Positions 41,525 through 47,513 of a stretch of 64,000 nt of DNA are shown here, piece after piece. Positions within the stretch are counted from its first letter, which is position 1, and every line of letters begins with the position of its first letter. The notes below the pieces were generated by a model. That model had not been told where the DNA came from and searched no databases. It was given only the letters and a program-made list of their open reading frames with translations. Made by a program: the position numbers and the translations under genes. The stretch spans positions 2,256,501 to 2,320,500 of the forward strand of contig NZ_AP019697.1 of the NCBI RefSeq assembly GCF_007164725.1, given 5' to 3'. Source of the DNA: Dialister hominis. Its GTDB lineage: Bacteria; Bacillota; Negativicutes; Veillonellales; Dialisteraceae.

Positions 41525-41770
41525 TAAAAAAAGCCCCGCCGCAAAGGGACGGGATTTTCCGTGTTCCACCCAATTTCGCCCCTGCGTTGCCGCAAAAGCC
41601 TTGGTAAGTCAAAAAGACTCAGCCACTGTAACGGGTGATCCCGGGCCGCTTACTTGGGTTCAGCTGGCCGGCTCGAAGAGGCACTTCCATGGAATTCCCA
41701 CGCCCGTTTCCACCATCGGGGCTCTCTTTGGAGGTTCCATCCATGTACTTTCTCTTGTCATCGCTCATAT
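41525..41770 (-). promoter_or_regulatory. T-box riboswitch leader of the ABC transporter
   Basis: On the minus strand the leader contains the Stem I start AGAGAGCCC with the GGTGGAAA loop, then CTGAACCCAAGTAAGC, a CCCGTTA segment, the T-box-like GGGTGGAACACGG (41560-41572) and a terminator hairpin with T7 (41525-41553). These are the hallmarks, in order, of T-box leaders that sense uncharged tRNA. The TGGA bulge would pair with a tRNA ending UCCA. The specifier is probably ACC (Thr) or CCC (Pro); I cannot fix its register. Confidence 0.8.
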
Positions 41771-46166: not shown

Positions 46167-46196
46167 TTGACAAGGACGGCCGCACCGGTCTATAAT
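46167..46196 (+). promoter_or_regulatory. Consensus promoter of the T-box transcript
   Basis: A perfect TTGACA (46167-46172) and a perfect TATAAT (46191-46196) are spaced by 18 bases, immediately upstream of the T-box leader. Confidence 0.88.
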
Positions 46197-46204
46197 AACG
46201 CCAA

Positions 46205-46412
46205 TATAAGCGATGACTGGGAATAAGTTTCTTTCCGAAATCACAGAGAGCCGGGCAGGTGGGAACCGGTATGGAAGAGGAAGCGTGTCGCCCATGAGCT
46301 CAGAGCCGAATGAAGTAGGCGAAGCGTCGATCCGCGTTAAGGATAACCAAGCTACAAAGCAGGGTGGTACCGCGCATAAGCGCCCTTGTCCGATGGGACA
46401 GGGGCTTTTTTG
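46205..46412 (+). promoter_or_regulatory. T-box riboswitch leader of the PEP-mutase family gene
   Basis: The leader shows AGAGAGCCGG with GGTGGGAACCGG (Stem I tip), GCCGAATGAAGTAGGCG near the specifier, the exact T-box core AGGGTGGTACCGCG at 46361-46374 and a terminator GCCCTTGTCC-gatg-GGACAGGGGC plus T6. TGGT would pair with a tRNA ending ACCA. The triplet before AAGTAGG is ATG, so methionine is one possible specifier, but the register is not certain. Confidence 0.88.
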
Positions 46413-46445
46413 TTAGGCATCCGCTTTAGCAGGTGAGAAATAAGT

Positions 46446-46507
46446 GAGAGTGGTACCGCGCACATGCGCCTCCCGTGCAGGATTTTTTCTGCGCGGGAGT
46501 TTTTTAT
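46446..46507 (+). promoter_or_regulatory. Second T-box antiterminator/terminator without its own Stem I
   Basis: GAGTGGTACCGCG (46448-46460) repeats the T-box core, followed by a second terminator CTCCCG(T/C)GCAG and CTGCGCGGGAG plus T6 (46469-46507). No Stem I lies between it and the first terminator, which ends 35 bases earlier. Confidence 0.78.
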
Positions 46508-46616
46508 TAGGAGGCAGGGCATGACAGGCAGAAGGAACCAAGTCCCCTCGGGGACATATGATTTGATAGTCCAAGTCCATTAACCATTTTGTCTTTTCCC
46601 TGAGGAGGATCTTACT

Positions 46617-47513
46617 ATGAAAACAGCTACAGAAAAAAGAATCGCATTCAGAAACATGCTTAAATCCGGAGAAATCATCGTTGCACCGGGCATCGGCGAC
46701 GCACTGTCCGCCAAGATCGCAGCCTATGCAGGCATCAAAGCCCTCACCATGGGCGGCTACTCCGTTTCCGCATCCCGCCTGGGACAGCCGGATGTCGGCT
46801 TCCTTTCCTGCACGGAAATGGCTGAACAGCTGACCGGCATCTGCAACGCCACCGACCTTCCCGTCGTTGCCGACGGCGACACCGGCTACGGCAATGCACT
46901 GAACGTCATCCGCACAGAGCAGATGTTTGAACAGGCCGGCGCTGCCTGCATCTTCTTCGAAGACCAGGCATGGCCGAAACGCTGCGGCCACATGGACGGC
47001 AAGCAGGTTATCTCCGCCGAAGAACACGCACAGAAAATCCGCGCCGCCGTCGACGCACGCCTCGATAAAGAAACCATGATCATGTCCCGCACCGACAGCC
47101 GCGCCGTCTACGGCATCGACGACGCCATCGAAAGAACAAAACGTTACATCGACGCAGGCGCAGAAATCTGCTTCGCCGACGGCATCGGCACCAGAGAAGA
47201 ACTCGAAAAATTCGCCAAAGAACTCTCCGGCAGCGGCGCCTACCTCGTAGCCAACATGATCGAAGGCGGCAAGACACCCCTCATCCCGGCCAAAGAACTT
47301 GAGCAGATGGGCTTCTCCCTCGTATTCTGGGCCTGCAGCGCCGTCTACACCATCTCCAAAGCCCTCTACGACCTCTTTGGAAACCTCGCCCAGGACGGCA
47401 CCACAGAAAAGAGCCTGGACCGCATGATCGAATTCTCCCAGTTCAACAGCATGATCGGCCTCGACACCTACAAAGAATACGAAAGAAAATACAAAGTAGA
47501 CAGAGACGACTGA
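46617..47513 (+). CDS. Isocitrate lyase/PEP mutase family enzyme
   Basis: The 298-residue protein is of the PEP mutase/2-methylisocitrate lyase superfamily: PGIGDALSAKIAAYAGIKAL, the metal-binding VVADGDTGYGN, EDQAWPKRCGHMDGK (a KKCGH-type catalytic loop), MSRTDSRAVYG and FADGI. Members are lyases, mutases or oxaloacetate decarboxylases acting on C4-C7 acids; which reaction applies is not clear. GAGGAGG precedes the start. The gene is behind two T-box terminators, an unusual control for this family that suggests a link with amino-acid supply. Confidence 0.85.
   Translation: MKTATEKRIAFRNMLKSGEIIVAPGIGDALSAKIAAYAGIKALTMGGYSVSASRLGQPDVGFLSCTEMAEQLTGICNATDLPVVADGDTGYGNALNVIRTEQMFEQAGAACIFFEDQAWPKRCGHMDGKQVISAEEHAQKIRAAVDARLDKETMIMSRTDSRAVYGIDDAIERTKRYIDAGAEICFADGIGTREELEKFAKELSGSGAYLVANMIEGGKTPLIPAKELEQMGFSLVFWACSAVYTISKALYDLFGNLAQDGTTEKSLDRMIEFSQFNSMIGLDTYKEYERKYKVDRDD

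Follow-up and report, generated by a model that had tools for sequence, protein, structure and literature searches.

The gene for a PEP-mutase/isocitrate-lyase family protein in Dialister hominis was found to be preceded by a T-box leader with one Stem I and two antiterminator/terminator modules in series. Judging from folding and comparison, it is fairly probable that this leader works as a serial two-checkpoint valine T-box served by one tRNA, and that it controls a lyase which would act on a 2-alkylmalate in place of LeuA. The source genome is closed and 2.41 Mb in size, and positions are those of the 64,000-nt window, the whole stretch of DNA that was analysed; the promoter, leader and lyase gene all lie on its forward strand.

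The leader is preceded by a consensus promoter (46167-46196), with TTGACA at 46167-46172 and TATAAT at 46191-46196 separated by an 18-nt spacer, as the sequence-only reading had noticed, and both boxes were also present upstream in loci L031-L033. The full T-box leader proposed in that reading was borne out by the sensitive scan, in which Rfam RF00230 matched 46204-46390 over the full model length (1-219) with 77.6 bits and an E value of 3.4e-17. The default Rfam scan of the window did not report the focal T-box, because the gathering score of 93 exceeds its 77.6 bits; among the 33 strong T-boxes found in the same genome, 16 were also under this score, those of ileS, serS and glyQ included. 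Weak matches to SMCR2_1, SNORD98, anti-hemB and PhotoRC-I in the sensitive scan were below threshold and were dismissed. Stem I, for which a covariance-model search had been suggested, was located at 46204-46299 (model positions 1-104 of the RF00230 alignment), and the Stem II/IIA-B region with the motifs AGUAGG and CGUUA (F-box) at 46300-46345 according to the Rfam alignment and the four-species alignment.

The core of module 1, AGGGTGGTACCGCGC, starts at 46361, and antiterminator 1 (46360-46388) is composed of A1 (CAGGG/CCUUG), A2 (GCGC/GCGC) and the T-box bulge UGGUACC at 46365-46371. Terminator 1 (46382-46411) is a 10-bp hairpin at 46382-46405 followed by U6 at 46406-46411. The second core, GAGTGGTACCGCGC, starts at 46448 after a gap of 35-36 nt from the U-run of terminator 1, and no Stem I was found between the two modules, in agreement with the earlier claim of a second antiterminator/terminator 35 nt downstream that lacks Stem I. 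Antiterminator 2 (46448-46472, with the bulge UGGUACC at 46451-46457 and a core identical in four species) has the same A2 (GCGC/GCGC) and an A1 (GAG/CUC) of only 3 bp, compared with 5 bp in relatives. It is preceded by the purine-rich string GAGAAAUAAGUGA with AUAA (46435-46447), in which RRR..AUAA is kept in four species, and followed by terminator 2 (46470-46505), a 13-bp hairpin at 46470-46499 with U6 at 46500-46505. Structural folding of both modules gave -24.5 kcal/mol (z -2.7) for terminator 1 and -30.6 kcal/mol (z -5.1) for terminator 2, and in each module the antiterminator and the terminator were mutually exclusive. The UGGN bulge was complementary to the NCCA end of tRNA in both modules (UGGU with ACCA of tRNA-Val).

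T-boxes with duplicated terminator-antiterminator elements were reportedly described by Vitreschak et al. 2008 (RNA). The focal leader has the same architecture and belongs to this known class of partially tandem T-boxes. According to a 2020 review (PMC7583486), how they act is not known. With the transcriptional T-box of RF00230 the focal leader shares Stem I with a specifier, the UGGU bulge and the exclusive antiterminator and terminator, but two such modules stand behind its one Stem I. Serial terminators are also shared with the full tandem T-boxes of the same genome (the Cys pairs L006/L014 and L021/L010), in which, however, each module has a Stem I of its own. An apparent mirror case was observed at locus L004 (contig C1 of the same genome, 1486269-1486622, reverse strand), where two successive Stem I regions are followed by only one antiterminator/terminator, upstream of a gene for a LivH-type permease; the specifier resembles CTC (Leu) in the first Stem I and is ATC (Ile) in the second.

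The specifier was read as the codon that precedes the NGAG motif by five bases. This register decoded known genes of the same genome (valS GTC, ileS ATC, serS TCC, cysS TGC, glyQ GGC and leuC CTC), and the specifier of the thrS leader was not decoded by it. The focal leader and its three Dialister orthologues all read GTC, and a tRNA-Val(GAC) with discriminator A and an ACCA end is encoded in the genome. As read from this register, the specifier of the focal T-box is GUC (46287-46289), for valine. Methionine, which had been suggested with reservation from the ATG before AAGTAGG, was rejected, as this ATG falls in the Stem II region. The window contains one more T-box (41542-41770, reverse strand), whose specifier region includes the codon TGC (Cys); it precedes an amino-acid ABC transporter ATPase gene with TcyN as its best NCBIfam match.

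Both modules were found in four Dialister species, the focal one and three others. The second core AGAGTGGTACCGCGC, the A2 helix, the purine string with AUAA and the following terminator were conserved among them, while the downstream part of the leader had diverged. In the same genome, other two-core leaders were detected before serC, a LivJ-type binding protein gene, a pheC-like gene and a sodium:solute symporter gene. A pattern of two cores that lie within about 50-115 nt and are separated by a T-run was found in 33 of the 61 Veillonellales genomes, which represent 11 of 13 genera, against a handful of matches to reversed-pattern controls. With this spread and the recurrence in three other Dialister species, module 2 is not a chance terminator, as the sequence-only reading had allowed it might be. 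About 50 two-module leaders were collected from the 33 genomes, and 11 more from unrelated Bacillota; about half of the phylum-wide pattern matches were chance matches in coding sequences and were removed by core sequence. The class-level survey around G333 added one further leader, which lies outside the analysed sets. The targets of the collected leaders were biosynthetic and transport genes, and no aminoacyl-tRNA synthetase gene was seen among them. Three two-module Leu T-boxes of leuC (L185, L186 and L187), with the cores GTGGTAACGCG and GTGGTACCGCG, were missed by the two-core pattern.

A helix that may join the two modules was predicted in the focal leader. When antiterminator 2 was constrained to form, the best fold (-46.9 kcal/mol) placed the hairpin of terminator 1 inside a helix between 46346-46366 (ACC, GCUA, AAGC and GGGUG of the first T-box core) and 46418-46434 (CAUCC, GCUU, UAGC and GGU, directly 5' of module 2), and keeping both antiterminators gave only -28.7 kcal/mol. 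The 5' strand was also seen in the free fold, the taking up of GGGUG in the MFE fold, and the 3' strand is backed by the folds and by permutation at the group level. Taken alone, the focal helix was bulged and not better than shuffles (p about 0.4), so its support comes from the group of related leaders, and its presence in the focal leader is proposed by analogy with that group.

In nearly all of these leaders, a linker 5' of module 1 appears to pair with the spacer 5' of module 2 and thereby to enclose module 1. Since shuffle tests on individual leaders were mostly unimpressive (median p 0.12-0.14), real linker/spacer pairs were compared with spacers permuted among leaders, and covariation was scored. 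In the BCAA/Ser group of 17 non-redundant leaders, the duplex energy was -11.8 kcal/mol against -7.2 kcal/mol for permuted pairs (sd 0.62, 0/5000), and the signal held under a stricter redundancy filter (n=10, at most 18/5000). The Phe/Trp group (n=15) gave -9.1 against -6.3 kcal/mol (sd 0.57, 0/5000), which became only suggestive under the strictest filter (n=6, p about 0.02-0.06). Out of sample, 11 leaders of other Bacillota outside Veillonellales showed -18.9 against -10.6 for permuted pairs (sd 1.3, 0/5000). In the Phe/Trp group the helix register was fixed, and 97% of cells were paired in 18 distinct leaders, compared with 84% when shuffled and 25-46% when slid. Four of the six pairs had changed on both sides in these 18 leaders, and pair 4 occurred as five types (UA, CG, GC, UG and AU). 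In locus L063 (1501-1780), three antiterminator/terminator modules follow one Stem I, and the linker can pair with both spacers.

The relation of this helix to Stem III differed among the groups. In other Bacillota every first module has a local Stem III-like hairpin, whereas in the Veillonellales BCAA leaders this hairpin is mostly absent and the helix simply encloses module 1. In L118, L122, L123 and L126 the 5' strand of Stem III and 2-5 bases of its loop are taken up by the spacer. This second pairing thus exceeds the first in length and does more than repeat the local 3' strand; the helices of L123 and L126 have 11-14 bp. In L114-L117 the spacer paired best with the AT1-side strand, not with the shared 5' strand, and in the leuC leaders of the sister genus each module apparently has its own Stem III hairpin, which is a counter-case. 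If module 2 had arisen by copying the 3' half of Stem III together with module 1, part of the complementarity would come by descent; the compensatory changes and the pairing into the loop argue against descent as its whole cause. No earlier description of a linker-spacer helix or of strand exchange with Stem III was found, Vitreschak et al. 2008 being outside that check, and the joining of modules by such a helix is new as far as could be checked.

Such a helix might serve merely as an anti-antiterminator that resets module 1 after passage and takes no part in placing module 2. This reading draws on the BCAA group, where the spacers complemented the T-box core above shuffles (14.0 vs 12.1, sd 0.51, 0/400), and on the Phe group (loci L003, L052, L056 and others), where terminator 1 itself is formed by pairing of the T-box core with the downstream anti-T-box GGUACCACCC. 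The reset alone is nevertheless considered unlikely: in other Bacillota, where the linker helix was strongest, no anti-T-box signal was detected in the spacers (137/400 shuffles were as good), and the 3' strand of the helix ends beside the AA or AUAA that precedes antiterminator 2. A general anti-T-box role of the spacers, which holds in the BCAA group and fails in other Bacillota, was rejected. As the core of the Phe group pairs with the anti-T-box, the OFF state hides the UGGN bulge itself, in contrast to the usual T-box terminator.

Of the three options raised in the sequence-only reading for module 2 (one tRNA used twice, a decayed tandem T-box or an independent switch), the action of one tRNA twice fits best on grounds of structure and comparison, and the decayed tandem T-box lost ground. 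Module 2 is unlikely to be a decay product because both modules were kept in four Dialister species. It is very improbable, specifically, that a decaying remnant of a full tandem T-box here adds a constitutive, partly leaky terminator. The missing Stem I of module 2 and the short A1 of antiterminator 2 in the focal leader would suit such a remnant, but its core, purine string and A2 were kept in the four species, the class occurs in 11 of the 13 genera of the order, the helix covaries, and the triple-module leader L063 exists.

In the mechanism proposed for one tRNA acting twice, uncharged tRNA-Val(GAC) would pair at two sites, by its anticodon with the GUC of Stem I and by its 3' end with the first T-box bulge, and the tRNA on module 1 would allow RNA polymerase to get past terminator 1. 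The spacer is transcribed next and would pair with the linker before module 1 and with GGGUG of the first core. The resulting helix would dismantle antiterminator 1, leave terminator 1 as a harmless hairpin in the helix loop, and seat antiterminator 2 where antiterminator 1 had been. The same tRNA, still held by Stem I, could then shift its 3' end to the second bulge; the hand-over and its timing are deduced from the predicted structures. As expression would need uncharged tRNA at both checkpoints, leak would be multiplied down and the response would become steeper. The sensor includes Stem III and the purines beside it, and when Stem III is missing an antiterminator scarcely binds tRNA (PMC7583486). 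Where only one Stem I is present, the second antiterminator must therefore have a Stem III or something equivalent to it, which the linker-spacer helix would supply for module 2. The conserved helix between the modules thus offers a concrete and easily tested model of sequential decisions by one tRNA, which would explain how the second antiterminator works without a tRNA-binding arm of its own.

The two checkpoints might instead be served by a tRNA each, the first remaining bound to Stem I and module 1, and another uncharged tRNA binding module 2 without Stem I. Antiterminator 2 does keep an intact UGGUACC bulge and the A2 helix, as this would demand. Only one specifier exists, however, so that the second tRNA would be bound without specificity; in the discriminator described in the literature, tRNA binding itself already requires Stem III (PMC7583486), and the spacer helix predicts that antiterminator 1 is taken apart. 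The use of two tRNAs was judged quite improbable.

Downstream of a ribosome-binding site (AGGAGG, 46603-46608), the leader is followed by the gene for a C-C lyase of 298 aa (46617-47513) with the motif KRCGH. The PEP-mutase/isocitrate-lyase family named in the sequence-only reading was confirmed by Pfam PF13714 PEP_mutase (1.3e-40). Against NCBIfam prpB (TIGR02317) the protein scored 279.1 bits, under the cut-off of 354.4, and its best PDB match was the petal death protein 1zlp (233 bits). The nearest named relatives were found in Dialister. The petal death protein and 2,3-dimethylmalate lyase (3fa3), both among the best PDB matches, are of the same family and of K[KR]CGH type; in contrast to these, the focal lyase is controlled by a valine T-box and associated with leuCDB in the absence of LeuA. 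It belongs to a family other than that of LeuA (TIGR00973, HMGL-like domain).

In the same genome, leuC-leuD-leuB are under a Leu T-box. No LeuA/CimA-type protein was found there apart from a partial HMGL domain within a frame of 1174 aa, probably pyruvate carboxylase, and neither IlvC nor IlvD was found. The distribution of leuC, lyase and LeuA was scored across the 61 Veillonellales genomes. All seven genomes with leuC in the family of the focal species (G000, G003, G004, G005, G008, G009 and G010) contained the lyase and no LeuA. Four others (G001, G002, G006 and G007) lacked leuC, lyase and LeuA, and G011, which is 75% complete, has a LeuA-like gene and neither leuC nor lyase. In the other families leuC was accompanied by LeuA or a LeuA-like gene without the lyase, except in G027, which has both. 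The lyase gene of the sister genus follows a T-box that has one module and the specifier CTC (Leu), so that Val or Leu T-boxes precede the lyase in two genera.

The cleavage of 2-alkylmalates by lyases of this family yields a 2-keto acid plus a carboxylate, which in the case of 2-isopropylmalate would be 2-ketoisovalerate and acetate. The focal enzyme is proposed to be a 2-alkylmalate lyase that cleaves, or in reverse forms, most likely 2-isopropylmalate, and in this genome without LeuA it would join 2-ketoisovalerate and acetate to the LeuCDB steps. From this family chemistry, the lyase and LeuCDB are proposed to interconvert the keto acids of valine and leucine, and on gene content the lyase likely replaces LeuA. 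The earlier suggestion of a role with an amino-acid precursor was thus strengthened and narrowed to the leucine/valine branch by the absence of LeuA, the co-occurrence with leuC and the Val/Leu T-boxes. It is somewhat unlikely that the protein is an ordinary methylisocitrate or citramalate lyase or an oxaloacetate decarboxylase from central metabolism that came under T-box control and has no link to leucine and valine. The closest NCBIfam model is indeed prpB, albeit under its cut-off, and the substrates of the family are broad; the strict co-occurrence with leuC in genomes of the family without LeuA and the Val or Leu T-boxes over the gene in two genera speak against it. In the literature searched, neither a 2-isopropylmalate lyase of the PEP-mutase/isocitrate-lyase family nor a paper on leucine synthesis in Dialister was found, and the replacement of LeuA by the lyase is new as far as could be checked.

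The gene context points to an unrecognised leucine/valine enzyme in gut Dialister, where leuCDB occur without LeuA and a petal-death-type lyase is present instead, and a lyase in place of LeuA would correct auxotrophy predictions that rest on LeuA. A wider reading, to which we give somewhat less than even weight, is that in the partial-tandem T-boxes of Bacillota the spacer strand-exchanges into the Stem III region, erases antiterminator 1 and passes the same tRNA on once, or twice where one leader has three modules, as a kinetic double check made of RNA only. In Dialister this check would control a LeuA-replacing lyase that connects the leucine and valine skeletons via free acetate.

Some further genes related to this branch were observed. 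A second LeuC/aconitase-like protein, 39% identical to LeuC, is encoded in the focal genome (contig C1, 1582320-1583561, reverse strand). A lyase paralogue with 61-62% identity and no T-box core upstream is present at locus L188 (G004, contig 53). At locus L023, a TRAP-transporter binding protein gene is under a T-box with the valine specifier GTC, which suggests uptake of valine or its keto acid.
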